53,660 nt of DNA from an uncultured Lachnospiraceae bacterium (lineage in GTDB: Bacteria; Bacillota; Clostridia; Lachnospirales; Lachnospiraceae). Below the pieces are notes generated by a model. The model did not search any database. It was not told where the DNA came from and saw only the letters and a program-made list of their open reading frames with translations. Within the stretch, counting starts at the first letter, position 1. Every line of letters starts with the position of its first letter. Where the stretch lies: NCBI GenBank assembly GCA_947623805.1, contig CANQHZ010000013.1, positions 1 through 53,660 on the forward strand, written 5' to 3'. This document shows positions 5,147 through 26,383 of the stretch, in pieces. The translations under genes and the position numbers were made by a program.

Positions 5147-7258
5147 TTATTCTATATAGTCGCTTATTGTCCAGCTGTCTAAGTCTGAGGCGTGACCATT
5201 TACGCTGAATATGGTATCCGCCGCCCTGCACTCAACTACTTTGCGCTCTATCTGCTCATCCTCTGAAATTTCGCTGAAGGTTCTTCCGTATTTTTCCCAA
5301 TCAAGTCCTATAGCCTTGATATAAGTCGGTGCCAATTGCGACTGGGAAACGGGGGCATTGTTTATTACCATTGCCTCATTATGCTCATACGGCTCCTTTA
5401 TTATGAATATAGGGCGTGATGTTCTGTCTGGTCCTCCCGATTTTCTTGAAGGATCATCCATAATCGTACCTTGACCATGATCAGCTGTTATAATAATTGT
5501 AGCATCATCATATTTTCCAAGCTTCTTAAGCTGTTCAAGATACTCATACACTATTTTCATGCTACCACGCCCCTGCGAGTGCATTGAGCCTTCCCGTCCT
5601 GATGCATCGTATCGAAAATCATCTGTAAGGCAAAATGGAGCATGCAGTCCAAACATATGATAAAACTTAAATGCCTTGTCAAGTCCCTCCTGAACACTTA
5701 TTCCTTCACTTGCAAGGTAATTATGGAAAAGTGAATCATTTTCTATATTCCACGCATCTTTTCCTACTATATAATTAACGATATCGCCAGAATAATAAGA
5801 GTGCATTATCTTCATGCAGAATGGGGACATTTTGTACAAGGATGCATTAACCATCATCTTAAATACTTTTGTGACATTATATTTATACTCAATGTTATCA
5901 TTATAATTTGGCAGCATAGGATAAATCGAATCTGGAATATATCTAAGATCTGTATATATTCCTAAGTCATATCCTTGTTCATATATTGTCTCAAGCAAAT
6001 CGCTGGTTCCATAGGCATAATTATAGTAATCGTCTTTGTGTGCTTCATCCCACTCAACTCCTGTCAACATATATGGAATAGCTTGAGCCGTATGGAAGAA
6101 TTTTGCCGTGCCGTTCCTGTAATAAGTAAAATCAGCCAATGGCGCTGTAAAGCCTTCATCCTCCTCTAAAATTTCCTCAAACCAATCCCCCTCATAACAG
6201 TCAAGCACAAAAACCAACACATTGTCATTCTCTGCTATCTGGAGCGCTCCTTTATTCGTTAACGCCGCATATTCCTTTGTACTCAAATCACTTGTTACAA
6301 CTAAATATACGAGCGAAAAAGCCTGTATAAGGGCAATATACCAGCATAATAGTTTGCATGCCTTGAATATCACATTCTTTTTATGACCTATTAGCATAAC
6401 TGCCATAATTACAGCAAGCCATATGGCAGCGTTAATAAGCTTGGTTGAGAACTCCCAAACCTGGTCTTTTCCATCCATGCTTTGAAGTTCACCATTCAAA
6501 AACATATTCTGTATATATCCCATAAGCACCATAATTGACAGCAAAACATTCACTGCACCATATATGCGTTTAGGCAAAAACAATATGCCCATAAGTATAA
6601 GCGCTGCACCGGCAAGCAGGCTTGCAATAATCATTATGACAAGAAATACCCAATAGCTGCCTGGAAACTCCTCTGGATTGTTCAGATACAATTCATTTGG
6701 CAAATATATTCCAACTGTCATAACGCATGCACATATAACAGGTAATGCATCCAGTATATAGCTTTTACATTCTTTTATAGATATAAACTCAATATCTTTT
6801 TTATACAGCAATGCCACGATTGCCGCTATCACAAATGATATCACGTAAATAACACAATACCACATAATACTAATATGGCATTTTAATATAAAAGCAAAAA
6901 ATAGCAAAACCAAAAGAGAACAGTCAAATATTCTAATAAACTGCCTTCCCCTTATCCTGAATATCAGCTTGATTAATACTGGAAGTATAATTCCAATTAG
7001 CATAAGCGGAATGCTATAATGAATATAAGTTATAGCCCTTATGTCCCAAAAGCTCTCATACAACGAATTATTATTATCGCCCAAATATACCTTAACAACC
7101 GATACTACAAAGTAGTGACTGGCGTAAAAAAACAAGAGTGTTTTTAGAAATACCCCCCCCCTCCTATTTTTCTGCGGATATTTTTTATTTATACATTCCC
7201 ATATTACGCTTGACAAAATTCCAAACATAAGGATATATATCAAAATATACCTCTGCAT
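5147..7258 (-). CDS. polytopic alkaline-phosphatase-superfamily transferase; in-frame G9 tract
   Basis: A 703-residue membrane protein with about ten hydrophobic segments in the first 330 residues and an extracellular sulfatase/LtaS-like domain after it. Visible active-site marks are the metal Asp in VFVLDCY, a likely nucleophile Thr (about 390, in FFHTAQAIPYMLTG), a His in FGLHAP and the metal pair in TADHGQG. Enzymes of this fold move phospho-alcohol groups (LtaS, EptA) onto surface polymers or hydrolyse esters. Substrate is unknown; in this locus a phosphonate or glycerophosphate group is a reasonable inference. The start has GGAGG 8 bases ahead. Codons 33-36 contain a run of nine G (7153-7161 on plus as C9). 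Nine keeps the frame; eight would stop at once. It is therefore an ON state of a likely phase-variable gene. Confidence 0.85.
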   Translation of the reverse strand: MQRYILIYILMFGILSSVIWECINKKYPQKNRRGGVFLKTLLFFYASHYFVVSVVKVYLGDNNNSLYESFWDIRAITYIHYSIPLMLIGIILPVLIKLIFRIRGRQFIRIFDCSLLVLLFFAFILKCHISIMWYCVIYVISFVIAAIVALLYKKDIEFISIKECKSYILDALPVICACVMTVGIYLPNELYLNNPEEFPGSYWVFLVIMIIASLLAGAALILMGILFLPKRIYGAVNVLLSIMVLMGYIQNMFLNGELQSMDGKDQVWEFSTKLINAAIWLAVIMAVMLIGHKKNVIFKACKLLCWYIALIQAFSLVYLVVTSDLSTKEYAALTNKGALQIAENDNVLVFVLDCYEGDWFEEILEEDEGFTAPLADFTYYRNGTAKFFHTAQAIPYMLTGVEWDEAHKDDYYNYAYGTSDLLETIYEQGYDLGIYTDLRYIPDSIYPMLPNYNDNIEYKYNVTKVFKMMVNASLYKMSPFCMKIMHSYYSGDIVNYIVGKDAWNIENDSLFHNYLASEGISVQEGLDKAFKFYHMFGLHAPFCLTDDFRYDASGREGSMHSQGRGSMKIVYEYLEQLKKLGKYDDATIIITADHGQGTIMDDPSRKSGGPDRTSRPIFIIKEPYEHNEAMVINNAPVSQSQLAPTYIKAIGLDWEKYGRTFSEISEDEQIERKVVECRAADTIFSVNGHASDLDSWTISDYIE
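7153..7161 (-). repeat. G9 homopolymer (C9 on plus), ON phase
   Basis: Nine identical bases inside the coding region of the membrane transferase, about 100 bases after its start codon. The frame is intact with nine. Confidence 0.9.
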
Positions 7259-7384
7259 TTTTCATTCCTCCAAGATGTTATCCTCTTTATAGACTGTATT
7301 CTGCATATTTAACGCCAAGTTTATAAATTTTACCGCCGTGCAATTTTTATTCAAAACAAAAAACCTGCACAGCGTGTTTTTCTG

Positions 7385-8506
7385 TTATTTAAAGTTTTTC
7401 ATAAATGCGTCTCTATTCTCTTTCGCCGTTTCCTTCGGTCTGCCCAAGTCTTTCCTCGAATCAAGCGATACCATAATTTCATAGAGCACAGGACCTTTTC
7501 TGCTGCCAAATGTTCCTGCAAGACTGTCAAGACCTTTTTCGTCCATAATCCGCTCCGTGTAAGCATAACCTGCTGCCTTTGCCACTCTCGAAAAATCCGT
7601 AGACTGGCAGCCTGTAGGCATTGCTCCTACCGATTCGTGAGCCTGATTGTTGATTACTATGTGATAAAAATTTTCAGGTGCCTGCGACGCGATAAACGGC
7701 AACGCGCCCATATGCATAAGAGCCGCTCCGTCGCCGTCGATACATACTATTGTCTTGTCCCTTTTCTCCTGCGCGACACCGAAAGCAATCATGGATGCAT
7801 GTCCCATGCCTCCGACAGTCATAAAAATATTGTCATGATTTCCAAACTGAGCATTACTCTGTTCATACAACTCACGCGATATTTTCCCCGTGGTCGACAC
7901 GATATATGCATCTCTTGGCACTATCTGCAACAGTCTGCCTAAAACCGCCTCGCGATTAAGTGTACTGCTGTTTTGCCATACAAATTCCCTATCCGGCTCA
8001 AAAGTGCCTTTCTTTACAATAATCGCAAACTGCAGGTTTTTATCAAGGTATGTCTTGGCGCGGGTTAATATTTCCTGCCACTGCTCATCCGTGGTATTCT
8101 TATCCACCACAGAATAAGGTACATCAAGCGTGTCAAACAGCTTACAGGTAATTTTTCCCTGAAAAACATGCTGAGGCTCGTCCTTAACACCCGGCTCGCC
8201 GCGCCAGCCTACGATAAACAACATTGGAATACCATAAACATCATCATTTGCAAGTGATGCAAGCGGATTTACTATGTTGCCTATGCCCGAGTTTTGCATA
8301 TATATGCACGCAGGACTGCCTGAGGCTAAAAATGCGCCCACTGCCAAGCCCACCGCTGCGCCCTCATTTGCCGTCACGTAATGCTTTAATCCACCCTCAT
8401 ATGTCTGCAGTCCATCGCAAAACTGCTTAAGTGTAGAGTCCGGCACTCCTGCAATTACCCTTACTCCCATATTTTCTATCTGCTTTAACAATCTATCTGC
8501 TTTCAT
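7385..8506 (-). CDS. aepY: phosphonopyruvate decarboxylase
   Basis: A 373-residue ThDP enzyme that converts phosphonopyruvate into phosphonoacetaldehyde and CO2, the step that pulls the unfavourable PEP mutase reaction forward. The N-terminal part has the typical GVPDSTLKQFC start and NEGAAVGLAVG (cofactor-activating Glu); the C-terminal part has the ThDP/Mg motif GDGAALMHMGALPF. The length matches the family. Its start overlaps the upstream cytidylyltransferase gene by 14 bases, so the two are probably coupled in translation. After it lies a 126-base gap before the transferase gene. Confidence 0.95.
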   Translation of the reverse strand: MKADRLLKQIENMGVRVIAGVPDSTLKQFCDGLQTYEGGLKHYVTANEGAAVGLAVGAFLASGSPACIYMQNSGIGNIVNPLASLANDDVYGIPMLFIVGWRGEPGVKDEPQHVFQGKITCKLFDTLDVPYSVVDKNTTDEQWQEILTRAKTYLDKNLQFAIIVKKGTFEPDREFVWQNSSTLNREAVLGRLLQIVPRDAYIVSTTGKISRELYEQSNAQFGNHDNIFMTVGGMGHASMIAFGVAQEKRDKTIVCIDGDGAALMHMGALPFIASQAPENFYHIVINNQAHESVGAMPTGCQSTDFSRVAKAAGYAYTERIMDEKGLDSLAGTFGSRKGPVLYEIMVSLDSRKDLGRPKETAKENRDAFMKNFK

Positions 8507-9185
8507 TAATCTTATTCAGCTCCTCTACGGTATCAATCTCGACCAGCTGTCCCTCATTTACAGGCTCTATCGTCAAATCCAGCTTGTCCAAATTTTGATT
8601 AACTATATCGTCCCAAAAAAGCTGGCTGTTTTCTTCCTTATCATATGCCTTTTCAATCTGTTCTTTGAGGCAGAGCGCTTCCTTTTGCCTGAAATACGCT
8701 ATGCCCACCATATTATAAGTATCCGTGCCGCCTTTGCCCACTCTCGTAATTTTTCCATCCTGCAAATCAAAAACCCAATCGTCCGAATATCCCGCCTGCA
8801 TTCTGCCATAATAGCAGGATTTAGGCAGCGGTTTGCAAAAAATTGATGCATCAGCGACATATAAGTCCGACTCGCAGATAAAGCAATTCCCCTTTGCCAA
8901 AACTTCTCTTGCGGCATATATGGATGAAATATTGTTTTTCTCTCTATAATCCTTATTATTAATCAGCTTTACCATAGGGTATTTGCGCTGAAGATAATCA
9001 AACTGCTCCCCTAAATACCCCGTCACCACATATATCTCATCGACCGGTCTTGAGATAAGTCCTTCGATTACTGTTTCTATCATAGGTTTTCCAAATACCT
9101 TTATCAAGGGCTTTGGCATTTTTTCCGTCAGCGGGCGCATCCTTGTCCCAAGACCCGCCGCCATCAAAATCGCTGCTTCTTTCAT
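8493..9185 (-). CDS. PntC/LicC-like nucleotidyltransferase (probable CTP:AEP cytidylyltransferase)
   Basis: A 230-residue sugar-nucleotidyltransferase-fold enzyme. It begins AAILMAAGLGTRMRPLTEKMPKPL, the NTP-binding signature, and has the metal Asp in CESDLYV and a late EID motif. It resembles LicC (phosphocholine) and PntC (AEP) cytidylyltransferases more than hexose-1-phosphate enzymes. Together with its neighbours it should make CDP-AEP, the activated form used to decorate glycans or lipids. The ATG at 9185 (with GAGG just upstream) is chosen over a TTG 24 bases earlier. It starts 26 bases after the PEP mutase stop and overlaps the decarboxylase gene. Substrate assignment is by family and context. 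Confidence 0.87.
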   Translation of the reverse strand: MKEAAILMAAGLGTRMRPLTEKMPKPLIKVFGKPMIETVIEGLISRPVDEIYVVTGYLGEQFDYLQRKYPMVKLINNKDYREKNNISSIYAAREVLAKGNCFICESDLYVADASIFCKPLPKSCYYGRMQAGYSDDWVFDLQDGKITRVGKGGTDTYNMVGIAYFRQKEALCLKEQIEKAYDKEENSQLFWDDIVNQNLDKLDLTIEPVNEGQLVEIDTVEELNKINESR

Positions 9186-9211
9186 ATTTCCTCTTATTTT
9201 CCGTTTCAATC

Positions 9212-10507
9212 TTAAAGCTCATCAATCAGGCGTATAATATCCTTAAAAGGCATTAACTTAGAATCAACCTCCATCGCCCTATGATGTTTCAGTATTTCCG
9301 TCGCGGTTTCCTGCATTGCGGGGAACGCGCTCCTCGTAAGCTGGTTGGCATAAATTACTATATTAACCCCTGCCTTTGCCAGTTCTTCCTCCGTAATGCT
9401 GTTAAACGAAGTTGGTACTACCACGATAGGCGTAGACTTATCCCTTTCCCTGAACAGATGGCAAAACTCCAAAATCTCATCGGGGCTTTTCTTCCGCGAA
9501 TGAATCATAATGCCATCTGCTCCAGCCTTCACATACGCAAAAGCGCGCTCCAGTGCTTCCTCCATAGGCTTTTCCAAAATCAAGCTCTCAATACGCGCAA
9601 TAATCATGAAGTCGTCCGTGCGGAGCGCCTGTTTACCTGCGCTTATTTTCTCGCAGAAATTCTCTATCGTATCTTGTGTCTGCTCTACTTCCGTGCCAAA
9701 CAGCGAGTTCTTTTTTAGTCCTGTCTTGTCTTCTATGATTACCGCCGACACTCCCATACGCTCTAAAGTCCGCACATTGTATACAAAATGTTCCACAAGT
9801 CCGCCCGTATCACCGTCAAGAATAATCGGTTTTGTCGTCACATCCATCACATCATCAATCGTACGGATACGCGAAGACATATCGACAAGTTCAATATCGG
9901 GCTTACCCTTTGCCGTTGAGTCGCACAGGCTCGAAATCCACATAGCGTCAAACTGGTCGAGTTCTCCGTTGCTCTCCACGATAGTTTTTTCGGCAATCAA
10001 ACCTGTCAAGCCTGAATGTACTTCAAGGGTTTTTACAATAGGACGCAGCTTTATCAGCTGACGCAAGCGCTTACGCCTAAATTCAGGCATCGCAAGCTTT
10101 TCTTTCATGCGGTCGTCAATCTTTTTGACCTTTTCATTGTATGTATACGGTACTTCTATGAGCTGCCCGCCATATTTTTTGAGATTATTTACTACATTCT
10201 CTCTGATTGCGCTCTCAGGTCCGTTCTGCCAGTTGTCACCGTGAATGACATAATCCGGCTTTAGTTCTTCAAGAACATCGTCATACATAATCTCCCGCTG
10301 AATCAATACTTGGTCTGCAAGCCCTGTCGCCTTTATAATTTCTATCCGCTCATCTATCGAGATTGTCGGAAAACGATTGTATCGCACCATAGCTTCATCA
10401 GCAAGCACACCAACGATAACCTGTCCGTATTTTTTTGCCTCGTTTAAAATATTCAAATGTCCTTCATGGATAACATCCGTGCAAAAACAAGTGTAAATTT
10501 TATTCAT
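9212..10507 (-). CDS. aepX: phosphoenolpyruvate mutase with N-terminal cytidylyltransferase-like domain
   Basis: A 431-residue two-domain protein. Residues 1-140 form a nucleotidyltransferase domain of the glycerol-3-phosphate cytidylyltransferase type: HEGH (HxGH motif) near residue 14 and the ISIDERIE segment near residue 50. Residues about 150-431 are PEP mutase, which turns PEP into phosphonopyruvate, with the diagnostic EDKTGLKKNS motif (EDKxxxxxNS) and DGDTGG metal-site segment. The fused architecture is known in PEP mutases of surface-phosphonate pathways. It is unclear whether the N-terminal domain is active, since a separate cytidylyltransferase follows. The start codon has GAGG 4 bases ahead. 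Confidence 0.95.
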   Translation of the reverse strand: MNKIYTCFCTDVIHEGHLNILNEAKKYGQVIVGVLADEAMVRYNRFPTISIDERIEIIKATGLADQVLIQREIMYDDVLEELKPDYVIHGDNWQNGPESAIRENVVNNLKKYGGQLIEVPYTYNEKVKKIDDRMKEKLAMPEFRRKRLRQLIKLRPIVKTLEVHSGLTGLIAEKTIVESNGELDQFDAMWISSLCDSTAKGKPDIELVDMSSRIRTIDDVMDVTTKPIILDGDTGGLVEHFVYNVRTLERMGVSAVIIEDKTGLKKNSLFGTEVEQTQDTIENFCEKISAGKQALRTDDFMIIARIESLILEKPMEEALERAFAYVKAGADGIMIHSRKKSPDEILEFCHLFRERDKSTPIVVVPTSFNSITEEELAKAGVNIVIYANQLTRSAFPAMQETATEILKHHRAMEVDSKLMPFKDIIRLIDEL

Positions 10508-10640
10508 GTTTCCTCACATTCCGCCGAGCCTAATCCGTATGAAAAAGCACAGCCATAACTTATTTTATAATTATAATCATCAGGATAATCCACAGCAGAC
10601 GCCTATACGATACCGGCAAATTCACGTCATGCCGCACAAC

Positions 10641-11765
10641 TTACTTATACTTCACAGGTATTGCAACATTGTATTTTCTAAGCGCTTCCTCAAAAACCGT
10701 AAAAAAGTCTTCAATGTCCTTAGCCGTTATTGCGCCCAATGCACACAGACGAAACATTCCCATTTTTTCAACCTTGCCTGGATATATCGTAAATCCTCTC
10801 TCGTAGCAATAGTCGTGGATTTTGATAAAATCCCAGTTTTCATCGTCAGGATAGAGCGCCGCCGCGACAAGCCCCGACGAATATTCCTTAGGGATATAAG
10901 TGCGAAAGCCAAGCCCTGCAAGTCCGTCACAGATGGCGTTAAATACCCCAAGATGACGCTCCCACTTTGCCGTTTCGCCCTCCTCAAAGTATTCTTTCAA
11001 TGCCTGCCTTGTCGCATAAATCACCTGTACCGGCGGAGTAAAATGCATCTCGCCGTGCTCTTTCGCATATTCATACTGCATATACAGATTGCAATAATAT
11101 GAACGCTTGGGGTACTCGGCCGATGCCTCTATCACAGCCTTATTTCCTATTACAAAGGAAAGACCAGTCATTGCCATTATTCCCTTCTGCGCCGACGCCA
11201 TGCAGAAATCGATGTTGTCCTTTTGCATATCTATGGGGCGCATGGCATAGGTAGATGTCGTATCCACTGCAAACACGGCATGATACTTGTGCGCTATCGC
11301 GCCTATCTCGCGAATAGGATTTAAAAGCCCTGTACCTGTTTCGTTGTGAGTGGTGTAGACGAGCGCTACATCAGGATTTTCCTGCAATGCCCTTTCCACT
11401 GCTCCCATATCCATAGGCTGATTGAGCGCAAATTTGAGGTTTATATGCTCCAGTCCGTAATATTCGCATATCTCCACAGCTCTGCTGCTGTATGCACCAT
11501 TATTGAGTATCAGGATTTTTTTATCTTGCGGCAGCAGCGAATTGAGACATATATCCATATTTATAGTACCTGAGCCGCAAAACAAGACAGCCGTATACAC
11601 GCTTGGGTCAGCATGCACAATTTTCAAAAGACCATCTTCAATCTCACGCATAACCGCCACAAACTCTTTTTCTCTGGGACAAATATCAGGCACAACCTGC
11701 GCCATTTTCACAGTATCTGTAGTCGTCGCAGGCCCCGGATTTAACAATACATTTCTCTTTACCAT
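10641..11765 (-). CDS. phnW: 2-aminoethylphosphonate aminotransferase (class V)
   Basis: A 374-residue PLP enzyme that interconverts phosphonoacetaldehyde and 2-aminoethylphosphonate, here in the biosynthetic direction. It begins VLLNPGPATTT, the PLP lysine is in ASAQKGIMAMTG and the cofactor Asp in FAVDTTSTY. The ATG at 11765 is favoured (GGAG 10 bases ahead) over an upstream in-frame ATG inside the methyltransferase 3' end. It follows that gene by 20 bases and precedes the PEP mutase gene by 133 bases. No phosphonatase gene is present, which argues against AEP breakdown. Confidence 0.92.
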   Translation of the reverse strand: MVKRNVLLNPGPATTTDTVKMAQVVPDICPREKEFVAVMREIEDGLLKIVHADPSVYTAVLFCGSGTINMDICLNSLLPQDKKILILNNGAYSSRAVEICEYYGLEHINLKFALNQPMDMGAVERALQENPDVALVYTTHNETGTGLLNPIREIGAIAHKYHAVFAVDTTSTYAMRPIDMQKDNIDFCMASAQKGIMAMTGLSFVIGNKAVIEASAEYPKRSYYCNLYMQYEYAKEHGEMHFTPPVQVIYATRQALKEYFEEGETAKWERHLGVFNAICDGLAGLGFRTYIPKEYSSGLVAAALYPDDENWDFIKIHDYCYERGFTIYPGKVEKMGMFRLCALGAITAKDIEDFFTVFEEALRKYNVAIPVKYK

Positions 11766-11785
11766 AACAATATTTCTCCAATAAA

Positions 11786-12545
11786 TTACATTTCGTTTTT
11801 TATCATAAAACAATTATAAACATAATCATTATTCCAATACTCTTTCATACTCGGCTTTGAAAATCTAATGCTCATATCATGTGTTTCGGCAAAATTTAAA
11901 AAGAACTGCTTCTCATAGAAAAATTTAGGTAAGTCCTTATATCGTTCTTCATAATTTTCTATAACCTGTTTCCTATATGCAATAAAGGCGTCTTTTTTCC
12001 CCGCATCATGAATATCTATAATTCCAATCGAATATTCTGCTTTCTTATACATCTTTTCCAACACTTCATAAGCATAATCATATCCATCAAAATATGAAAA
12101 GACACTATTTGAGAGTATGGCATCATACATAATCTCACATGATAAGTTTGATGCCTCATCACAAATCAGTTCTTTGGGAGTTTCCAATACCCCCTTTGCA
12201 ATTTCAATTTCTGCCGACGAATAATCTATTCCGCCTACCTTTATTCCATCTCTTTGAAACAAATACAAATTTGCCCCACAGCCACAGCCGACTTCAAATA
12301 TGCTTTTTATTTCCTTTTTTTGCGTCGTTGCGTTAAATTCTAATTCATTCTTAGTTTGTATATATTGGGAATAAAACTCATCATACGCAAGGCTGACCTT
12401 GTCATACCCCCCCCCTGGTATTAACTGAGTCCCACCCCGCAATTCGCTTTAGCTCCATAAATACCCTATGCGCATCTCCGGACTTTAACTCCTTTTCATC
12501 TGCCTCTCTCTTTTCCCATATTTCATGCCACTTACCATTTGTCAT
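11786..12545 (-). CDS. class I SAM-dependent methyltransferase, frame broken at a G9 tract (OFF)
   Basis: The natural start is the ATG at 12545, 20 bases after the YidC fusion gene, with GGGAG upstream. It opens MTNGKWHEIWEKREA, a start typical of this methyltransferase group, and runs 45 codons to the G9 tract at 12407-12415, after which it hits TGA. The rest continues in another frame: motif I is EVGCGCGANLYLF, followed by GIDYSS. Eight (or 11) G would join the halves into one 252-residue protein. A TTG at 12442 could start a short form, but it would lack the N-terminal segment and has no good ribosome site. Substrate unknown; the operon position suggests modification of a surface polymer. 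Either a phase-OFF contingency gene or a homopolymer miscall. Confidence 0.82.
12407..12415 (-). repeat. G9 homopolymer (C9 on plus), OFF phase
   Basis: Nine G in codons 46-49 of the methyltransferase. Frame arithmetic shows that 8 or 11 bases would restore the full reading frame. Confidence 0.88.
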
Positions 12546-12565
12546 TTTTGCTTTTCTCCCTTTCT

Positions 12566-14446
12566 TTATTTTTCAGAGCGCTTAACCAAACGGTCAATTA
12601 TATATTTCGCGCCTACTTTGCCGCTCGTTCCAATATTATAAATATACTGTTCTTTTAATTTTTGCAGAGAATCACTTGAAAATTCCGCGTCTTCCAATAG
12701 CTTATCTACCGCTGACACAATCTTGTCCCCTGCTTCTGACAAATCAACAGATATGCCTATCACATTTCGCAATTCTATATCAATCGGCACGGTCTCCAAT
12801 TCCTTATAATCAGGATTAAGAATTTTCATTGGCGTATTGATAAACAGTACAGGTTTCAATGTTGAAAATGTATACTCAAATGCAATGCTCGACCAGTCTG
12901 TTACAAGCAAATCCGCCATATACACAGTCTTATTAGAAGAAAAATCTTTTTGGAAAACAACACCGTAATCGCTGTACTTAGCAGCCAATGCATCAATCTT
13001 ACTCTCAAAATGGCGCACATATTGTGGGTGTGGTCTTACAATAATGCGATAATCTGTCTTCACAAGCTTGTCCAGCATACGCTCAATGCATGAATCTAAT
13101 ATATTATCCTTTTGCCAAGACGGCGCTATTAAAATTGTCTTTTTATGGCCGTCAACAGTCTGCATATTTTCTTCCACAAGCATTTGATTGTAAGATGCTG
13201 TCATATCATCAATAACTGAGGAGCCCCATTCAACAAGCGTCTTTGACGGCAATCCATACTTTTTCTCCCGTTCAGCAATTTCTGCCTTATTTTTCGGTCC
13301 TGATGTATAGATTGTGTCAAAATGGTCAAGCGCGTTTTTGTGAAAGGATAGATTTGCACTGTTTACGTCATGCGGCACATATATATACTCGATATCCTTT
13401 TTCACATAAGAGCGCTTTAGCTGGAAATTTTCCAAGTCAGGCGTAGTCATCACACAGATATCAGTTTCAAGCTTCATCATCAGCACAATAAGACGGTTCT
13501 CACCGATATAATAAGGTTTGAACTGCTCACTCTCCAAAGCAAAAACCTCGTCAAGCGGGTCACTTGTGATATAATGCACCACAATATTAGTCCTGCGTAT
13601 TATCTCCTCTATTATATTCTTATAATATTTATAAAAACCATTTTTCTCCGAATAGAAGACTACACGCTTTCTTCCTGCAGAAAAGAAACGCTTATAATCC
13701 GCCTTTTCCTTTTTTCGGTACGGATTTTTCCTGTCCTCTTTCTTTTTTGGCGCCATAAATTGTTTCGCCTGTTTTAATTCTTCCTTGCTCTTTTCCAAAG
13801 CGTCATAATCTATATAGTTTTTGGGATTTATCCAGATATTCAAAAGTACAAGCTGCAGTATGGAAAGCAGGTTGCTGTAGCTCCAATATATTCCCACTCC
13901 TATCGATACAAAAAAGCCAAGATACAATGAAAGCCCTACGGAAAATATCATAGTACCGTACTGGTTAAGCGCGCCCTGCTCCGCCTGCAGGACATTTATT
14001 TTGTTCTGCACATAACACATCAAAAAAGCCGACACTGCCGCAATCACAGGCACGAGCAGCGTAAGCCCCATAGTTTGTATAGGTACGGCATTTAAGGTCG
14101 TCCCGCGCTTTACCGCCTCCACGACGCCCATCAGCAGCGCAAGCTGTACGAACAGCGGTATCAAGTCCACAAACGGGCTGTATTTTTCCCGCTTAAACAG
14201 CTTGTACTGCTCCTCGGAAATCATCTCCTGATTACCCATGTATGCCGCCTTGATATGGTTCATCTCAGGCTGCATACGCACTGTCTTAATGGAATTTTTC
14301 TGCACCCATACGGAAAGTGGCAGCAGAATAACCTTTGTCAGAAAAGTAAATATAAAAATCGCAATCCAATAATTGTGGCAAACGGCATAGCAGGCGTTTA
14401 TAAGCCATACTAAGCCGTCTACTATCGCATTGATTATAGCACTCAT
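12566..14446 (-). CDS. YidC/Oxa1 insertase fused to CDP-glycerol glycerophosphotransferase-like domain
   Basis: A 626-residue fusion. Residues 1-225 are YidC/Oxa1-like with membrane helices near 25-45, 95-115, 125-150 and 165-185 and the conserved cytoplasmic hairpin. A Lys/Glu-rich linker (about 225-260) leads to a GT-B domain of the TagB/TagF type, with RPHP near 471 and TDWSS near 518. Such enzymes transfer glycerophosphate or similar alcohol phosphates from CDP donors. In this locus the donor could be CDP-AEP, which would make it the missing AEP transferase (inference). Classical YidC lies with rpmH/rnpA, so this is an accessory copy. It starts 5 bases after the small upstream gene, and GAGG lies upstream. 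Confidence 0.9.
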   Translation of the reverse strand: MSAIINAIVDGLVWLINACYAVCHNYWIAIFIFTFLTKVILLPLSVWVQKNSIKTVRMQPEMNHIKAAYMGNQEMISEEQYKLFKREKYSPFVDLIPLFVQLALLMGVVEAVKRGTTLNAVPIQTMGLTLLVPVIAAVSAFLMCYVQNKINVLQAEQGALNQYGTMIFSVGLSLYLGFFVSIGVGIYWSYSNLLSILQLVLLNIWINPKNYIDYDALEKSKEELKQAKQFMAPKKKEDRKNPYRKKEKADYKRFFSAGRKRVVFYSEKNGFYKYYKNIIEEIIRRTNIVVHYITSDPLDEVFALESEQFKPYYIGENRLIVLMMKLETDICVMTTPDLENFQLKRSYVKKDIEYIYVPHDVNSANLSFHKNALDHFDTIYTSGPKNKAEIAEREKKYGLPSKTLVEWGSSVIDDMTASYNQMLVEENMQTVDGHKKTILIAPSWQKDNILDSCIERMLDKLVKTDYRIIVRPHPQYVRHFESKIDALAAKYSDYGVVFQKDFSSNKTVYMADLLVTDWSSIAFEYTFSTLKPVLFINTPMKILNPDYKELETVPIDIELRNVIGISVDLSEAGDKIVSAVDKLLEDAEFSSDSLQKLKEQYIYNIGTSGKVGAKYIIDRLVKRSEK

Positions 14447-14451
14447 GCCTT

Positions 14452-14706: not shown

Positions 14707-14775
14707 AATTTTTATTCTCCATTCATATATATAATAATATTGGTATTATAACACCAACAAATATCAATGTCCAGC

Positions 14776-16488
14776 CTAAAAATAGGAATCTACTATCGGT
14801 ACAATCTCACTTGGTCCTATTTCTGTCTGCTTCAAAAGCTCCGATACATCACCGGTATAAGTATATCCAAAATACACATTCGAATCGCCTGTTTTATCTC
14901 CCGTGTAACAGGGAACAGACGGATAATCCTCGCTGTACATGCGCAGCCATACTGTTCTGGTTCTTTCTTCATCCTGCTCATAATCATGAACAGACTTGCC
15001 GTATTTCGTATAATCCACTCCTACTGCCTCCGCAATCGTTGGCATATAATCGGCAAATGAAACGGGAGCTGTATTGACAGGCGATACGTCATGCTTTTCC
15101 TGAGGCTCTTTCATATAAAATATCACTTGAGAATCATAGGGCCCTCCATGGTCTGCCGTAATAATAATCGTGGCATCGTCATACACCCCCAAATCCTTTA
15201 GCTGATTAAGATATTCATTCACGATTACCATGCAGCCCTTTGTAGTTTCCTCCAGTGTCGAGTTTTCTTTGTAATTGCCCGCTTCATCAGTCGTATAAAG
15301 ATGAGGTCCCATAATGTGCTGCACGATATAATAATTGGATTTACTGTCAGCAGTAAGTCTTTTCTCCGTCAATCCTTTATAAAAATCATAATTCTCATGG
15401 TTGATTTTATTTTCTTTAACTTCTACAATATTTGAATACTCGTCAATATTGGCATAAAAATATGGTTTTAAGATATCTGGAAACATACGATAGCTTGACA
15501 TCTTAGCCATAGTCTTGAACAAAAGCTTATAAAATATATCTATCTCCTGCGAGGAATTTACTACATTTGACAGCTTGCCATCCAAAATCTCCGGCGAATT
15601 AAGACCGCATAAAATATTGGTGTCAGGCGTATACACATTCGCCACAAAATTTTGCTCGGAAAGCATATCATAAAATTCTTCCGTGCTTTCATTGTTCCAG
15701 ATATTCTCACACCATTCATTAATCCCGACATCCATATCAACCTCCTGTCCTGTAAGCATATGAGGAAGTGACGGAAACGTGCCAAAATAAACACAATCCA
15801 TATTGTTGTAATACGTAAAGTCATGGAGGAAATCCACGGCGTCAGGGTATGCCGTCAACAACGGCTCTATATACTGATTGCTGAAATAATCCAAAATTAT
15901 AACAATTACATTTTTATCGGCAGAAACCGTATACTGATTCTCGCCTGAGAGATGCCATTTCCCCTCAGGATAAACATATGCTTCCTCCCTCGCCGATACA
16001 GTCAATGATACCAGCGCAACTGCCTGTATAAGCAAAAGGAAAACGGATAAATACATAACCGTCTTTTTCCAAATCTCCGATTTCCAAAAAGCCAAAACGA
16101 TAACTCCGACTATTATGACAAGCCAAACAATAAGATTGCCTACAGACTGTCCCGTTCCAACCTTATATCCTTCCGGATTTACGCCAAGCAAATCAAGATT
16201 TTTATTCAAAAACATAACCTGGATATATCCACCGACAGAAAACGCAAATATCACAGACATCACTGCCCTATACGCCTTATCAGGTAAGACAGAAAATATC
16301 AATGTAAAAACAATCGTACCCGCCACGGCAAACAAGGTCATATACCCTGCAAACTCACCATATACAAACTCAAATTCCGTAACATTTGAGAAAAAAATCT
16401 CAGACGGTCCAAAAATAAGCAGCATAAAAGCCAAAAGAAAATTAATCAAAAATGCAATGATTATTTTCTCTTTAATAATCTTTTTCAT
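14776..16488 (-). CDS. membrane alkaline-phosphatase-superfamily (sulfatase-like) transferase
   Basis: A 570-residue protein with four to five membrane helices in the first 170 residues and an extracellular sulfatase/LtaS-like domain. Active-site marks are the metal Asp in VIILDYF, the nucleophile candidate Thr237 in FGTFPSLPHMLTG, HIMGPH, and TADHGGP. It is a shorter paralogue of the 5147-7258 gene, with similar segments (LDDFTYY-type, MLTG, DATIIITADHG, NTAPVS). It is the first gene of the phosphonate operon, with a promoter candidate 20 bases upstream. Probably moves a phospho- or phosphono-group onto a surface polymer; substrate unknown. It has no homopolymer tract. Confidence 0.86.
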   Translation of the reverse strand: MKKIIKEKIIIAFLINFLLAFMLLIFGPSEIFFSNVTEFEFVYGEFAGYMTLFAVAGTIVFTLIFSVLPDKAYRAVMSVIFAFSVGGYIQVMFLNKNLDLLGVNPEGYKVGTGQSVGNLIVWLVIIVGVIVLAFWKSEIWKKTVMYLSVFLLLIQAVALVSLTVSAREEAYVYPEGKWHLSGENQYTVSADKNVIVIILDYFSNQYIEPLLTAYPDAVDFLHDFTYYNNMDCVYFGTFPSLPHMLTGQEVDMDVGINEWCENIWNNESTEEFYDMLSEQNFVANVYTPDTNILCGLNSPEILDGKLSNVVNSSQEIDIFYKLLFKTMAKMSSYRMFPDILKPYFYANIDEYSNIVEVKENKINHENYDFYKGLTEKRLTADSKSNYYIVQHIMGPHLYTTDEAGNYKENSTLEETTKGCMVIVNEYLNQLKDLGVYDDATIIITADHGGPYDSQVIFYMKEPQEKHDVSPVNTAPVSFADYMPTIAEAVGVDYTKYGKSVHDYEQDEERTRTVWLRMYSEDYPSVPCYTGDKTGDSNVYFGYTYTGDVSELLKQTEIGPSEIVPIVDSYF

Positions 16489-16508
16489 TATTTGGGATTT
16501 CCTTTCAT

Positions 16509-16536
16509 ATAATACACTATTCTACCCAAAAATCAA
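16509..16536 (-). promoter_or_regulatory. candidate promoter of the phosphonate operon
   Basis: On the minus strand TTGATT (16531-16536), 16-base spacer, TATTAT (16509-16514), just ahead of the first gene and its ribosome site. Confidence 0.55.
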
Positions 16537-16563
16537 ATTTCATTTATAAACACGAATACAATA

Positions 16564-17109: not shown

Positions 17110-17148
17110 AGCTAAACCTCCTTGTGTATTATCTATTCATCTTCTATG

Positions 17149-17187
17149 ACTTGGCAGCGCAATTTTGTCAAACTGCAGCTGCCAAGT
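17149..17187. repeat. inverted repeat between reductase and peroxidase genes
   Basis: ACTTGGCAGC (17149-17158) pairs with GCTGCCAAGT (17178-17187). There is no clear T run on either side, so terminator function is doubtful. Confidence 0.5.
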
Positions 17188-17241
17188 TTATTGTATCATA
17201 TATTTTGCAAAGAATCACTGTTTTTAGCAAAATTTTATGCC

Positions 17242-18381: not shown

Positions 18382-18479
18382 AAAATTCTCCTTTTCAGCT
18401 GCTGATTTTTAGTTTCAAACCGATTGCAAATAACGGTTAATTTTATTTTAACCGATATCACGCTTTAAATCAATCATAA

Positions 18480-18513
18480 AATCCCCGAAAGCATACGCCG
18501 TTCGGGGATTTTA
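18480..18513 (-). terminator. rho-independent terminator of metK
   Basis: AATCCCCGAA and TTCGGGGATT flank an 11-base loop; a run of T follows on the minus strand. It lies 30 bases after the metK stop. Confidence 0.8.
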
Positions 18514-18542
18514 CCATATCATTTTTTTACCTTATATTTACC

Positions 18543-19730: not shown

Positions 19731-19812
19731 TGGTAATCCTCCTTGTTTTTTGTTTTTTGTTTTTAGTTTCTTGTTTCTTTCCCGCGAACTTTCCTCTTTT
19801 AAGAATTGCAAC

Positions 19813-19843
19813 AAAAAATCCGCTTATCTTCAATAAGCGGATT
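19813..19843 (-). terminator. riboswitch-controlled attenuator ahead of metK
   Basis: Minus strand: AATCCGCTTAT pairs with ATAAGCGGATT (19833-19843 with 19817-19827), then a T run. It follows the SAM aptamer, as expected for SAM-dependent termination. Confidence 0.9.
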
Positions 19844-19869
19844 TCATCAGTTTCATTGATAATCAAATC

Positions 19870-19982
19870 CTCTTATTGTTCGACTTATCTTACGACGTTA
19901 GCTCGCTCAGGTTGGCACCTTCCATACCGGGGTTGCCGTGGCTTCTCAGGTCCTCTGTACCTCCACCACTCTGAATAAGAGT
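19870..19982 (-). ncRNA. SAM-I (S-box) riboswitch aptamer
   Basis: Minus-strand leader of metK. Helix P1 pairs CTCTTATT (19975-19982) with AATAAGAG (19870-19877). Conserved blocks in order are CAGAGTGGTGGAGG, GAGAAGCCACGGCAACC, GGTGCCAACC and GATAAG, which match the S-box consensus with its kink-turn and SAM pocket. Binding of SAM should favour the terminator at 19813-19843 and shut metK off. Confidence 0.97.
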
Positions 19983-20017
19983 AAAACTTACATATTAAAT
20001 TTTCAAGTCTTTTATAT

Positions 20018-20044
20018 ATTATACCTATATGCAGCGCTTGTCAA
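20018..20044 (-). promoter_or_regulatory. promoter of the metK leader
   Basis: Minus strand TTGACA (20039-20044) and TATAAT (20018-20023), spaced by 15 bases; an overlapping TAATAT gives a 17-base spacer. Confidence 0.65.
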
Positions 20045-20079
20045 CTGTTATTTTTAATAATAATGCTCAATAATAATGC

Positions 20080-21375
20080 TCAGCCGACCTTTAATTTAAA
20101 TTTTGTAAACTCCTTATCCGAATCAACTTTTTCTATTAACGCGCCAAGACTTTGCAATTTCACTTCAAAATCCTCGTAACCGCGCTCGATATATTTGATG
20201 TCGTCAACCGTGCTGAAACCGTCCGCTGTAAGGCAGGCAAGCACAAGCGCCGCGCCCGCGCGCAAATCCGGCGCCGTAATGTTTGCGCTCGTAAAATGGT
20301 CTACGCCCTCAATAATTGCGGTATTGCCGCCCTCAACCTTTATATTGGAGCCCATCTTGGCAAGCTCGTCTACATACTTAAAACGATTGTCAAAAATGCT
20401 TTCTGTCACAATGCTGGTCCCCTCCGCAAGCGCAAGCGACACGGCAATCTGCGGCTGCATGTCCGTCGGAAATCCGGGATAAGGCAGTGTCTTTACGTGC
20501 GTGTTGTTTAATCGCTTTGAAGCTGTCACGCGTACAGCGTCGTCCGACTCCTCTATCTGGCAGCCCATCTCGATAAGCTTGGCGCTTATTGATTCAAGAT
20601 GCTTGGGAATAACATTTTTTACCGTGACATCGCCCTTGGTAATCGCCGCGCCAAACATGAATGTTCCCGCTTCTATCTGGTCCGGTATGATTGAATACTC
20701 TGACGAATGCAGCTTCTTTACGCCTGTAATTCTTACCACATCAGTACCGGCGCCCTTGATATTCGCGCCCATTGAGTTCAAAAAGTTTGCCACATCAACC
20801 ACATGAGGCTCTTTCGCTGCGTTTTCTATGACTGTCTTTCCTTCGGCAAGCACTGCCGCAAGCATGATATTGATTGTCGCGCCAACCGATACGGTATCAA
20901 GATAAATATGCGCCCCCTTTAGCTGCTTGGCGTCAGCGATAATAAGACCGTGCTCAATCTTTACCTGTGCGCCGAGCGCCTTAAAGCCCTTGATGTGAAG
21001 GTCAATCTTCCTGCTGCCGATATTGCATCCGCCCGGCAAAGCAACCTCAGCGTGCTTGTACTTGCCAAGAAGTGCGCCTAGCAGATAATATGAAGCCCTT
21101 ATCTTCTTTATATAATCGTCCTCTATCACGAGCCCCGAAATCATGGACGCGTTAATTCTTACGGTATGTCTGTCTGTTCTGTATATGATAACTCCGATGC
21201 TCTCCATCGCCTGTAAAAGAACATTTATATCCCTTACGTCGGGAATGTTCTCGATAACTGTCCTGTCGTCAGTCATAATCGCCGCCGCAAGCACGCCCAA
21301 TGCCGCGTTTTTTGCCCCGCCGATTTCTACCTCGCCGACAAGAGGGATGCCTCCCTTAATCGCGTATCGTTCCAT
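20080..21375 (-). CDS. murA: UDP-N-acetylglucosamine 1-carboxyvinyltransferase
   Basis: A 431-residue enzyme for the first committed step of peptidoglycan synthesis, adding enolpyruvate from PEP to UDP-GlcNAc. The substrate loop Lys/Asn are in GGAKNAAL (K22, N23) and the fosfomycin-target Cys117 is in PGGCNIGSR. Two repeated inside-out alpha/beta domains are evident. The ATG at 21375 is preceded by GAGGTG; an in-frame ATG 12 bases earlier overlaps that site and is less likely. Many Clostridia carry two murA paralogues, so this may be either. Confidence 0.96.
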   Translation of the reverse strand: MERYAIKGGIPLVGEVEIGGAKNAALGVLAAAIMTDDRTVIENIPDVRDINVLLQAMESIGVIIYRTDRHTVRINASMISGLVIEDDYIKKIRASYYLLGALLGKYKHAEVALPGGCNIGSRKIDLHIKGFKALGAQVKIEHGLIIADAKQLKGAHIYLDTVSVGATINIMLAAVLAEGKTVIENAAKEPHVVDVANFLNSMGANIKGAGTDVVRITGVKKLHSSEYSIIPDQIEAGTFMFGAAITKGDVTVKNVIPKHLESISAKLIEMGCQIEESDDAVRVTASKRLNNTHVKTLPYPGFPTDMQPQIAVSLALAEGTSIVTESIFDNRFKYVDELAKMGSNIKVEGGNTAIIEGVDHFTSANITAPDLRAGAALVLACLTADGFSTVDDIKYIERGYEDFEVKLQSLGALIEKVDSDKEFTKFKLKVG

Positions 21376-21407
21376 CGTACACCTCATAAACTTGTTTAAT
21401 AGTCTTG

Positions 21408-21436
21408 ATTATATACCTTTTTACAGCTTTTGTAAA
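21408..21436 (-). promoter_or_regulatory. promoter of murA
   Basis: Minus strand TTTACA (21431-21436), a 17-base spacer, and TATAAT (21408-21413), about 30 bases ahead of the start. Confidence 0.7.
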
Positions 21437-21490
21437 CCGACAGACCGCTTGTTATCTTATGAAAATTAATAAAAATTTTAGCTAATTTAA

Positions 21491-23068
21491 CTAATTCAGA
21501 TAGTTCAGCGGGTTTACGGCGCTTCCGTTGATGCGTATTTCAAAATGAACATGCGGTCCTGTAGTTATGCCCGTATTTCCGCTGAGAGCTATGCGCTCGC
21601 CTTGCGCAACCTTCTGCCCGGGCTTTACAAGCACCTTGCCTAAATGTCCGTATCGCGTCTGCTTGCCGTCATCGTGATTTATATAAACCGCATATCCATA
21701 CCCGCTTGTCCAGCCGGCCGTCACGACCGTCCCTGCATTTGAAGCAACTACAGTAGTGCCGACAGGTGTAGCCCAGTCAATGCCTTTGTGGTACGTCGAA
21801 GCTCCCTTAGTCGGCGCGCTTCTCGCACCAAATCCGGAGCTTAAACGACCACCAGATATCGGTTTGATATATGTGGGCGGTATCTTTGTGCCGCGCTCCA
21901 CAATCTTCGGAACTGCCTCTGCGTATATTTCTTCTTTTAATATCTCACGTCCAAGCTCACTGTCGTTTTTGTGTCTGATAAGCGCGGCTACTTTGCGCCT
22001 GCCTGCCGACGGTGCCTGGAGCGTCACACTCTGCGTAGTGTACCAGTCATCGTTTGGCACATATTGAACCTCCGCCTCGTAATCCTCGACATATACCTGC
22101 TCCTCATCCCATATAATGGAAAGGTCCGGCTCAGGCACTGTAAGCACAAGCTCCTGCCCTACGCGGATGGTCGTATTTTCGTCCTCCAGCGCATCATTCA
22201 TTGCGACAATCTCATTCATAGGTATATTGCTGTTGAGTGCAATTTCAGAAAGCGTATCTCCCTGTTGCACCTCATATACAACCTGCGTCTCCTGCTCCTT
22301 TGTCACAAGGTCAACTGCCTCGGAAACGCTCTGCAGCTCATTTTTCATAAGATATGCCTCCGCTATCTCAATAGTGTCGGCATAATCTATCCCTGTAAGC
22401 CCTATCTCATAGTCGTCAAAATCTTTTTCAATCACAGGCTCAACATCCCAAAACATAGATGTCAGCACTGCCTCAACTCCCGCCGCCTGTTGTGTTTCCT
22501 CCGCAGAAGCCTCGTCCTCAGTTGAAACCACATGCGCGTCAAGAACGTTCATCTCTCTGTCACTGTCCAGCAAAAGCTCGACGTCATATTTACCCGCCGC
22601 ATCATACGGCGCAAGCGCCTGTTTCAGCAAATCGTGAACCTCCTCGGGCGAGCTCAGGTTCACAGTCACATCATTTATCTTGACAGTATACGCGCGCTGC
22701 AGCGTCTCCTGCGCGCTGCTCCTCATAATATCTGCCAGTCTCTTTGTGACCGTCTCGTCGCTGTCCACAGCCCCAAATATGACTTCCCTTCCCGACGTTT
22801 CAAGCGAAAGGTCCATAAAAATCAGGTCATCTGCTCCGCTTTCTTCCGATACACTTTTGCGCGCATCACTCATAAGCTTGTCGAGCTTGTCCATAGAGCC
22901 TACGCAGCCCGCCTCCACACCGTTAAGCCTTACCGCAAAATAATTGTCACCCGTATGCCTGAAAAATTCAAGCGATGGAAGCAGAAAAGCACACGCGATA
23001 ATCGAAATAACAGCTGCCTCAATATAACACAGTCTGAATTTTTTTAAATAGTTCTTTTTGGTTTTCAT
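21491..23068 (-). CDS. M23 peptidase with LysM and G5 domains
   Basis: A 525-residue envelope protein. A single membrane helix (about 15-33) anchors it; a long middle region is followed by LysM (about 265-312, QQGDTLSEIALNS), a G5 domain (about 325-395) and a C-terminal M23 metallopeptidase with HKGIDWA and HVHFE zinc motifs. It should bind and cut peptidoglycan outside the membrane. The start has GGAG about 12 bases ahead. It lies just upstream of murA with the same orientation, which suits a cell-wall role, although murA has its own promoter. Confidence 0.92.
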   Translation of the reverse strand: MKTKKNYLKKFRLCYIEAAVISIIACAFLLPSLEFFRHTGDNYFAVRLNGVEAGCVGSMDKLDKLMSDARKSVSEESGADDLIFMDLSLETSGREVIFGAVDSDETVTKRLADIMRSSAQETLQRAYTVKINDVTVNLSSPEEVHDLLKQALAPYDAAGKYDVELLLDSDREMNVLDAHVVSTEDEASAEETQQAAGVEAVLTSMFWDVEPVIEKDFDDYEIGLTGIDYADTIEIAEAYLMKNELQSVSEAVDLVTKEQETQVVYEVQQGDTLSEIALNSNIPMNEIVAMNDALEDENTTIRVGQELVLTVPEPDLSIIWDEEQVYVEDYEAEVQYVPNDDWYTTQSVTLQAPSAGRRKVAALIRHKNDSELGREILKEEIYAEAVPKIVERGTKIPPTYIKPISGGRLSSGFGARSAPTKGASTYHKGIDWATPVGTTVVASNAGTVVTAGWTSGYGYAVYINHDDGKQTRYGHLGKVLVKPGQKVAQGERIALSGNTGITTGPHVHFEIRINGSAVNPLNYLN

Positions 23069-23151
23069 TTATGTTAAATTACTCCAATATTTATTCTATC
23101 CAATGTCAACATCATTACAATAACACAACATATGTGCCTTGTAAAGCTTAA

Positions 23152-26100
23152 TCATCTTTTAAATATATATGTCCCCGCCTCAAGTTCCATACTCTCTCCA
23201 TTGTCTTCGGGCAGTATTACTGTAGCAGATGTATTTGGAGGTATCACAAATGTATATACTGTTTCCCCGTTCTCAATACGCCTGCAGCTCTTAATTGTGC
23301 CATACATACTCTCGTAACTTCCACTGACCTCTCCTATTTGATTTATACCCATTGGCTGCAAAATAAAATGCTTGAAACCTGCGGACGAAACATCAGCCTT
23401 AATACCAAGCAAATCTGAATATATCCACTCCGCTACAGAGCCAAGCGCATAATGATTTAGCGAGCCATTAATGCCATATTTTCCATCATCAGCCTCATAG
23501 TATGTCATCCAAGACTCGGTTATCGTAGTACCTCCGTGTGCAAACATATAGTTCCATGACGGATAGCCCTCCTGCGTTATAAGCTTATATGCAGAACCAA
23601 CATAACCATATCTACACAGTACCGAAAGAATATATGGCGTTGTGATATACCCCGTACTTATGTGAAAATCTCCCGCTTCAAGAGAAATATTCAGCTTTTC
23701 TGCGCCTGCCGCTTCAAGTTCCTTGGGATACAAGCCAAAGGCAAGCCCCAATACATACTCAGACGGAATCCAGTAGCCTATAGAACCGTCATCATTGATA
23801 TAGTTGTCCTGCCACGCGTGTCTATAGTTTTGATAAACTTCAGCATATTTTTCATAAGCCTTCATATTTCCTAAAACCTTGCACATTCTTGAAAGCAAAT
23901 CTGCCACATGCGCGCACTGCGCCGTATTGGACAGCGCAATTTCAGCACCCGAAACAGCATTATGGTCACCGAACCCCTCATCATAACGTATATAGTTATC
24001 GCTTGTTGCAACAAGATAATCCATATATCTGCACATAGCCTCAAAGTTGTCTTCAATTATACGCTCATCGCCATATTGCCTGTATAATGTCCATGTAATA
24101 GTAATAATCGCATCTCCCCAGCCATTACTTCCTCCGGAAACGGCTGGCAACAAACCGATATCCTGTATTGAACCATCGTCATTCTGCCCTAAACGCAGCG
24201 CCTCAAGATAACGCGACATAAAATTATATATATTTGAATTGTATGCCGCAGCTGGTGCAAATACCTGCGCATCGCCACTCCATCCAAGTCTTTCGTCGCG
24301 CTGCGGGCAGTCAGTCGGCATATCGACAAAATTGCTGAGCTGTGTCCAATATATATTGTTATATAATGTATTTATTTTGTCCTCAGAACACTCGAAACTT
24401 CCTGTACGCGCATTTTGTGAAGACAAAACAAGCGCTTTTATATCATCGCCCGTCAAAGCCTCGTCAATCCCTGTAATCTGTACATACCTAAAACCTCTGC
24501 AAACAAACTCAGGCTCAAAGATTTCTCTTCCGTTTCCTTTCATAATATAGTAATCTGTATTCTTTGCCGTGCAGAGATTTTGTGTCCATATCTTGCCAAC
24601 GTCATCATCCCTGCAAAGCATATTTTCTTCATTGAGCGCCTCCGCGTATCGAACAGTAACTGCCTGTCCTTCATTTCCATGCACGCAAATTCGGCATATG
24701 CCACTGAAGTTCTGCCCAAAATCATACACAAAACAGCCTTCCTGCGGCTGAGTAACCGCAACAGGCAAACGTTCTTCAAGACACATCACAGGCGCACCCT
24801 CAAATGCCCTTTTTCGCACCGCCGTCGCGTCACTTTCAAGCAATGACGCACTGCTCCAGCCTTCACAGTTATAGCCGAAAACAGTCCAATCGCCAATCTC
24901 ATAGCGGGCGTCATAATATTCTCCCCAGAACAAATCATCCCTACGCACCGGTCCGTTCCCATACGCCGCCCAAGTATCATCAGTAACAAATGTCTGCTCG
25001 CTTTTATCATCATACCTAACTACAAATTTGGCGCAAAGCGCAAGTTCTTCGCCCCAGTTTGATTTCGCGCGGTCATATCGCCCATGCCCCAAAACTGCTC
25101 CAAATACATTGTCGCCGTCTCTCACAAACTCAGTCACATCATATGTCCGGTAATAAACCTCCTCGGCATAATATGAATTGCCCGCCGCAAAATACTCTTT
25201 TGTTATTTCTTCCCCATTTAAATATGCCTCATACGTGCCAAGCGAGCATATATATAAACGTGCCGACTCTATTTTCTTACCGTCATCAGTCTGAAACTCT
25301 TTCCTGAACATAGGCGCGGGCTCCTCGCCACCCGGCACAGTAATAACTCCCGGCGAGGCCTCAAGCCAGCCGTCCTCAATCTTAGTATAAAACGGAGAAA
25401 AAATATTGCCGTTTTCATCCGAAAAATCTTCTCTGTAAAGTACATCGCCGCCGTCCGTCTCCACACGTATATTGTCGTAGTACGCATAATAAGCGCCTCT
25501 GCCCGTCCAAAAGCCCAAAAGCCCCATTGCTTTTGCCTCGTCCATTTCCTCCTTTGAAATCATTGCGCCGTCCAGATAAGTGTCAACATATTTTCCGTCA
25601 ACTTCAATCCTTATATCATGCGCACTCTGAATAAAGCTCTCCTTTGAAATTCCAAGCTCTGCCAGTGACAGCCTGCTCTCAATCAAAGTGTCTTCATATT
25701 TCATTTTCGATGTGACAAGCCATACCTCATCTTCACGCGTGTCAAAAGCCCAGAGATAATACTCGCCATAACAGTTCGTATCCATTCCCCACATAATGCC
25801 TGAATATGAGCTGTCCATTTTCAAATCATAAGAAATCGTATAATGCGTGTCCGTTTCCGCGGGCAAAACAGCACTTTGCCTTTCAGCCGCTCCGCCATCA
25901 TAATATATCCACTGCGCATTATCCCAGTCGCCGTCCAAAATCCCCGTTTCAAAATATGATGTTTCTTCAGATTTAGCTTTTCTGCCGTCATTGTCCTCCA
26001 CAAATACCTGCCAGTAATAGCGCGTTTGTGGCGCAAGATTACCCCCCCCCTGTATTGGATTGCGACAGACATAGAAGTTTCATTTTCTCCCGAATCCCAT

Positions 26101-26339: not shown

Positions 26340-26383
26340 TGTTAAGAAACAACCCTTTCTATCAGTAAACAGCAGCTGATAAG

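Follow-up and report, generated by a model that had tools for sequence, protein, structure and literature searches.

Three G9 tracts in envelope genes

The window analysed here, the whole 53,660-nucleotide stretch from an uncultured Lachnospiraceae bacterium, is contig C13 of a 3.96 Mb draft genome in 229 contigs that is 95.7% complete. Our subject is the set of homopolymeric guanine (G) tracts found in its envelope genes. Exactly three runs of at least eight G or C occur in the window, all of them C9 on the forward strand and hence G9 on the coding strand; they lie in genes for a sulfatase-fold protein, a methyltransferase and a glycoside hydrolase family 78 (GH78) alpha-L-rhamnosidase (Table 1). 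The next-longest runs are a G7 at 36630 and a C6 at 36857. In the sulfatase-fold gene the tract is read in frame (ON), with 33 open codons upstream and 667 downstream. The other two genes are out of frame (OFF): in the methyltransferase gene the upstream frame meets a stop immediately past the tract, and in the rhamnosidase gene an open frame of 962 codons continues downstream of the tract in another frame. A sequence-only reading had claimed G9 at these three sites, the states ON, OFF and OFF, and no further C or G run of eight or more in the window; the run scan and the frames around each tract bear out all three points.

Homopolymers capable of slipping (G8 or more) are thus represented in the window by three G9 tracts, which lie inside split or continuous genes, as at contingency loci. 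Dinucleotide shuffles of the window gave a mean of 0.16 G9 matches, and 2 of 100 shuffles reached three, so that the window taken alone offers modest, suggestive evidence. The full flanking motif described below, ATAC before the run and TA after it, is present at two of the three tracts; that of the sulfatase-fold gene has the 3' side only.

Table 1. G tracts of the window, the genes that carry them and the phosphonate genes
Feature	Position	Strand	Remarks
Sulfatase-fold protein, 703 residues	5147..7258	-	PF00884; tract near codon 36, in a stretch variable among homologues
G9 tract, sulfatase-fold gene	7153..7161	-	In frame (ON); 3' flank TATT, no preceding ATAC
Phosphonopyruvate decarboxylase	7385..8506	-	No tract
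Nucleotidyltransferase of phosphonate operon	8493..9209	-	No tract
Cytidylyltransferase-PEP mutase fusion	9212..10507	-	No tract
2-Aminoethylphosphonate aminotransferase	10641..11813	-	No tract
Methyltransferase-domain open frame (S-adenosylmethionine methyltransferase)	11786..12442	-	Intended start upstream in other frame, about 12545
G9 tract, methyltransferase gene	12407..12415	-	Out of frame (OFF); flank ATACCA-G9-TATG
GH78 alpha-L-rhamnosidase, downstream open frame	23152..26001	-	Four rhamnosidase domains
Rhamnosidase, upstream open frame	25821..26426	-	Lipoprotein-like N-terminus (by eye) and Rha78A N-terminal Ig domain
G9 tract, rhamnosidase gene	26042..26050	-	Out of frame (OFF); flank ATACA-G9-TAAT

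G tracts across the genome and their alleles

The source genome contains 58 runs of at least eight G by pattern, or 59 counting one at base 1 of contig C30: eight G8, 28 G9, 20 G10 and three G11. Runs of exactly seven G number 27, with T as the next base after five of them (by-eye count). A series of 27 at G7, eight at G8 and 28 at G9 is not the tail of a chance distribution. Among 23 genus-mates the number of runs per genome ranges from 0 to 32, and two further genomes of the genus, G338 and G339, hold 35 and 29. In G338, 12 G tracts fall within 27 kb (C6:107778-134322; L297, L286), many in consecutive open frames of what is seemingly one locus. On contig C8 of the source genome (L043), G10 tracts at 8635 and 9396 apparently lie within one gene (DUF1796).

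The genes concerned are biased towards the cell surface. Outside the window, 40 open pieces adjoining tracts, picked for length among the 59 tracts whether TA-flanked or not and taken from the G strand, were compared with Pfam at a threshold of E 0.001. Matches were obtained for 29: seven methyltransferases (TylF twice, FkbM once), 10 proteins of glycan tailoring or transfer (WcbI, a WbmS-like deacetylase, two formyltransferases, a Core-2 branching enzyme, a sulfatase fold, PIG-L, MBOAT, GT1 and a hexapeptide transferase) and 12 others, including AMP-binding twice, radical SAM, LysM, CBS and unknown families. Antisense open frames of at least 200 codons span three of the 59 tracts, none of which is followed by TA. 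The source genome thus displays these features of a Campylobacter-type phasome: many loci, a bias to surface genes and tract lengths that peak at 9-10.

Some tracts lie in promoters, where TTGACA is followed by a spacer containing the G run and then by TATAAT; one such promoter, with a G10 spacer, is kept in four genomes of the genus (L072, L289, L303, L207), with G10 in all. In Neisseria, homopolymer runs occupy promoter spacers between the -35 and -10 boxes, and the spacing changes with run length. The promoter tracts seen here differ in being a minority class beside intragenic tracts and in having ATAC before the run in most cases.

Some tracts also coincide with breaks in the assembly, at most an indirect sign of switching. 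At least five ends among the 229 contigs fall inside G runs (C30, C63, C120, C59 and C32), and contigs C59 and C32 are the two halves of one sulfatase-fold paralogue, broken at its G run.

Tract positions are kept in related genomes, which permits alleles to be compared. Of 24 listed pairs, 10 with a single aligned arm were left out; the 14 retained pairs are not independent, as two trios and a group of four related loci are among them. Tract length differs in 6 of these 14 pairs with both flanking arms aligned. For an AMP-binding gene, L053 has G9 and is ON whereas L298 has G10 and is OFF, with 200-base flanks that are 98% and 99.5% identical. For an MBOAT gene, L068 and L288 have G9 and are OFF, whereas L193 has G11 and is ON. 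Outside the window, then, length polymorphism accompanied by a change of state does occur.

At the window's own loci, we compared orthologues of the sulfatase-fold and methyltransferase genes. Four named loci recovered with the sulfatase-fold protein belong to Lachnospiraceae metagenome-assembled genomes. Judging by identity and contig numbers, we equate L107 with G338 and L106 with G339. The sulfatase-fold tract is G9 in the source genome and G338 and G10 in G339, and all three copies are in frame. The methyltransferase gene has a G9 tract and is OFF in both the source and L107; L106 has no aligned methyltransferase region. Comparing tract lengths among related genomes, a check that the sequence-only reading had proposed, therefore uncovered alleles that differ, but no change of state at the window's tracts, where both sulfatase orthologues are ON and the sole methyltransferase orthologue is OFF. 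Over all TA-flanked tracts with at least 30 open codons on each side, 14 are ON and 17 OFF in the source genome, 8 and 6 in G338, and 9 and 5 in G339.

The sequence flanking the tracts

The tracts share a DNA-level flank, ATAC-N0-2-G8-12-TA(T), that looks new. Excluding tracts too near the end of a locus or contig (3 of the 59), TA follows 42 of 56 source tracts, as against 23 of 146 G5-7 runs (Fisher p = 3e-15) and 62 of 704 G4 runs from the source loci. On the 5' side, TAC lies within five bases of 25 of the 56 tracts and of 4 of the 146 G5-7 runs (p = 1e-12). The two halves co-occur: over three genomes, TAC is present at 40 of 71 TA tracts and at 2 of 30 others (p = 1.6e-6). TA follows 23 of 35 tracts in G338, 19 of 27 in G339, 17 of 30 in G019 and 12 of 15 in G021, the tracts so counted being 35 of 35, 27 of 29, 30 of 32 and 15 of 17, respectively. 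With the source genome, these five genomes give 113 of 163 tracts followed by TA and 74 of 163 preceded by TAC.

Within the sampled genomes the motif is largely confined to the genus. The pattern ATAC-N0-2-G8-N0-4-TA matches in 20 of 38 genus genomes, and its reversed control gives three matches in two genomes. The other 18 have no match, whereas G000, G338, G339, G019 and G333 are rich in them. Such counts score one tract repeatedly if TA repeats, and in the source genome 27 counted matches correspond to 21 distinct full-motif tracts (by eye). A sample of 398 genomes from the phylum adds a further 22 with matches. One of these, G707, from another family of the same phylum, has six matches on contig C1, representing five distinct tracts of the form ATAC-G9 to G11-TA, with none for the reversed control; the remaining 24 matches in 21 genomes are little above the reversed control of 19 in 18 (our own count from the table). 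TA alone is distributed more widely: the 23 genus-mates give 109 against 249 runs, and 16 genomes from the order's other families give 23 against 109. In another Clostridia family, TA follows 23 of 30 G9 tracts fetched from G055 (L170-L188) and G090 (L239-L248), several of them in near-identical contexts, such as CTCCGACATTTGTC-G9-TA, that resemble a stem-loop repeat element. We rejected these (f33/g40) as instances of the same motif, given their near-identical, stem-loop-like flanks and different 5' side.

Neither codon use nor promoter function accounts for the flank. A codon effect is ruled out by the use of all three phases (9/6/13 for the downstream and 11/9/8 for the upstream frame). Of 117 TA tracts from the genus, 16 are non-coding, and a perfect TTGACA stands at promoter spacing in 13 of those. 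A -35 box with at most one mismatch accompanies 14 of the 16 but only 8 of the 101 intragenic-type TA tracts, which excludes an internal promoter as the source of the flank. TAC is found at 11 of the 16 non-coding and 60 of the 101 other TA tracts, and the motif is therefore common to two kinds of switch. Nor do the flanks form matching hairpin arms, as their mean complementarity is 3.23, compared with 3.21 for shuffled pairing.

The flank could reflect an intrinsic context for slippage or tract birth, arise partly as a by-product of frame control, or be the mark of a dedicated factor. To the first we assign roughly even odds: weak TA steps at both ends would favour slippage or the birth of tracts and be kept by selection, with no dedicated factor involved. 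Both flanks are indeed AT-rich with TA steps, and some other Clostridia also often have TA following the tract (8 of 11 in G033). In one table of 10 Campylobacter jejuni poly-G/C loci, T is the 3' base on the G strand in six, and two of the three loci with more bases visible read G8-10 followed by TAT; no ATAC is visible in that table, which displays few 5' bases (PMC7173850). The 5' ATAC is, by contrast, more specific than AT-richness and mostly restricted to the genus within the genomes sampled, and slippage of C. jejuni tracts during PCR has been reported as independent of flanking sequence (PMC4965091).

It is unlikely that the motif is a recognised site at which a lineage-specific factor, such as a nuclease, DNA modification, specialised polymerase or binding protein, makes, holds or adjusts the G tract. 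Were this so, phase variation in the genus would be assisted by a sequence-specific process beyond bare polymerase slippage. Also unlikely is that TA supplies an immediate stop in the wrong frame and so tightens the OFF state. For 19 of 32 TA tracts a wrong-frame stop lies at most one codon away, compared with 33% of control positions, and such stops may account for part of the TA preference. But 10 of the 15 TA tracts with a coding frame starting two bases past the run read TAT, which provides no such stop; TA also follows promoter tracts, and the stop leaves ATAC unexplained.

Probable phase variation and the phosphonate genes

We consider it highly probable (about 0.85) that these tracts represent slipped-strand phase variation on the scale of a phasome in a Lachnospiraceae-related genus, and that the window's tracts are among its contingency loci. 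By analogy with related systems, replication slippage would add or remove G residues at a rate comparable to theirs. At most loci, the change in length would shift the frame in which a surface-glycan or envelope gene is read and turn that gene ON or OFF; at a minority, it would alter the spacing between the -35 and -10 boxes. With about sixty loci varying independently, many surface types could arise within one population, and such variety would presumably be useful against phages, antibodies or competitors. The ATAC/TA context may mark those tracts that need a particular local sequence to arise or persist.

Several observations weigh against this interpretation. The evidence for switching comes from assembled genomes. 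The genomes compared are related at the species level, and hence differences in length are no proof of fast switching; tract length is moreover equal in 8 of the 14 aligned pairs, including the methyltransferase tract. MutS is present in the source genome, and loss of MutS as a cause is rejected, because MutS was found in 36 of 40 genomes, that of the source included. Of the 56 source tracts, 14 have no TA flank, and some of these are antisense or in a GC-rich context and may be background. Failure of Illumina sequencing at G runs can itself break contigs at such tracts (PMC9187656), and the C. jejuni PCR result cited above speaks against a role for flanking sequence in slippage.

Two alternatives to phase variation remain. 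It is very unlikely that ordinary frameshift pseudogenes, or base-calling or assembly errors at homopolymers, account for the OFF tracts. The assembly is a draft in 229 contigs, G runs are hard to sequence (PMC9187656), and the methyltransferase is OFF in both genomes that have it. Against this, the same tract sites recur in related genomes, lengths peak at 9-10, hundreds of open codons continue beyond OFF tracts, and the tracts have a flank in common. Also very unlikely is programmed transcriptional or ribosomal slippage by which OFF genes would still be expressed at a set level. In its favour, runs of G8-12 are prone to slip, the flank does not change with phase, which would suit a signal at the RNA level, and the methyltransferase G9 is out of frame in both genomes that have it. 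Against it, the same flank accompanies promoter-spacer tracts, where frame is irrelevant, and tract lengths differ between alleles.

Slipped-strand phase variation at poly-G tracts is itself familiar, and the apparent novelty lies in the bipartite flank and in the scale reached in this lineage. The Campylobacter phasome, as described in a PhasomeIt survey, is similar in that poly-G tracts peak at 9-10 (53% of poly-G/C tracts have length 9 and 26% length 10), lie mostly in open reading frames and number dozens per genome (PMC6321876), and its placement of G on the coding strand may be shared as well; the present set differs in its Lachnospiraceae-related lineage, the presence of MutS and the ATAC-N0-2-Gn-TA(T) flank. 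In Bifidobacterium breve, likewise a Gram-positive gut commensal, G-tract slippage sets the expression of a surface structure, but at two pilus loci, with lengths measured by maximum depth sequencing (PMC9187656), as opposed to about sixty tracts known here from assembly. A passage in a 2025 review treats multi-locus phase variation as confined to pathogens, a restriction that may stem from bias in the databases (PMC11868660). Among the matches listed in open-access PMC text, we found no report of poly-G phasomes in Lachnospiraceae or of such a flank. If phase variation is correct, surface switching on the Campylobacter scale would extend to a major group of gut commensals, some apparently broken genes in such genomes would be switched-off alleles, and assemblies could break at such tracts. 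The flank further makes it possible to test if the length of a homopolymer is all that governs its switching.

The sequence-only reading had cast the three tracts as switches of a phase-variable surface phosphonate/glycan system with up to eight states. Its core stands in so far as poly-G tracts of the contingency type do occur in envelope genes, but the scale was set too small, at three of 59, the shared flank was overlooked, and the three-switch phosphonate system as such is not supported. The operon for 2-aminoethylphosphonate biosynthesis is real: PEP mutase, phosphonopyruvate decarboxylase and the aminotransferase are all found, and exceed the NCBIfam cut-offs for PEP mutase (TIGR02320), phosphonopyruvate decarboxylase (TIGR03297) and PhnW-AepZ (TIGR03301). 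The window run scan detects no G tract in the PEP mutase, decarboxylase, cytidylyltransferase or aminotransferase genes, however, and the only tract-bearing genes in the phosphonate neighbourhood are the methyltransferase and the adjoining sulfatase-fold gene.

The sulfatase-fold protein, which matched no NCBIfam family and no solved structure among PDB sequences, may act as a transferase that places phosphonate on the cell surface. Its family is present in 30 of 38 genus genomes including the source, which also holds paralogues, and the tract position differs from member to member. The tract as an inserted element of fixed size is not supported, as the stretch there is variable among sulfatase-fold homologues; for the rhamnosidase, the comparison was with the usual GH78 N-terminal motif. 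A second protein of the sulfatase/phosphodiesterase superfamily (14776-16488, reverse strand) is tract-free and a distant paralogue (31%) of the tract-bearing one. Adjoining the phosphonate genes, a single open frame at 12566-14446 (reverse strand) has both a YidC/Oxa1-type insertase domain (residues 26-203) and a CDP-glycerol glycerophosphotransferase-like domain (374-536), a fusion that looks unusual.

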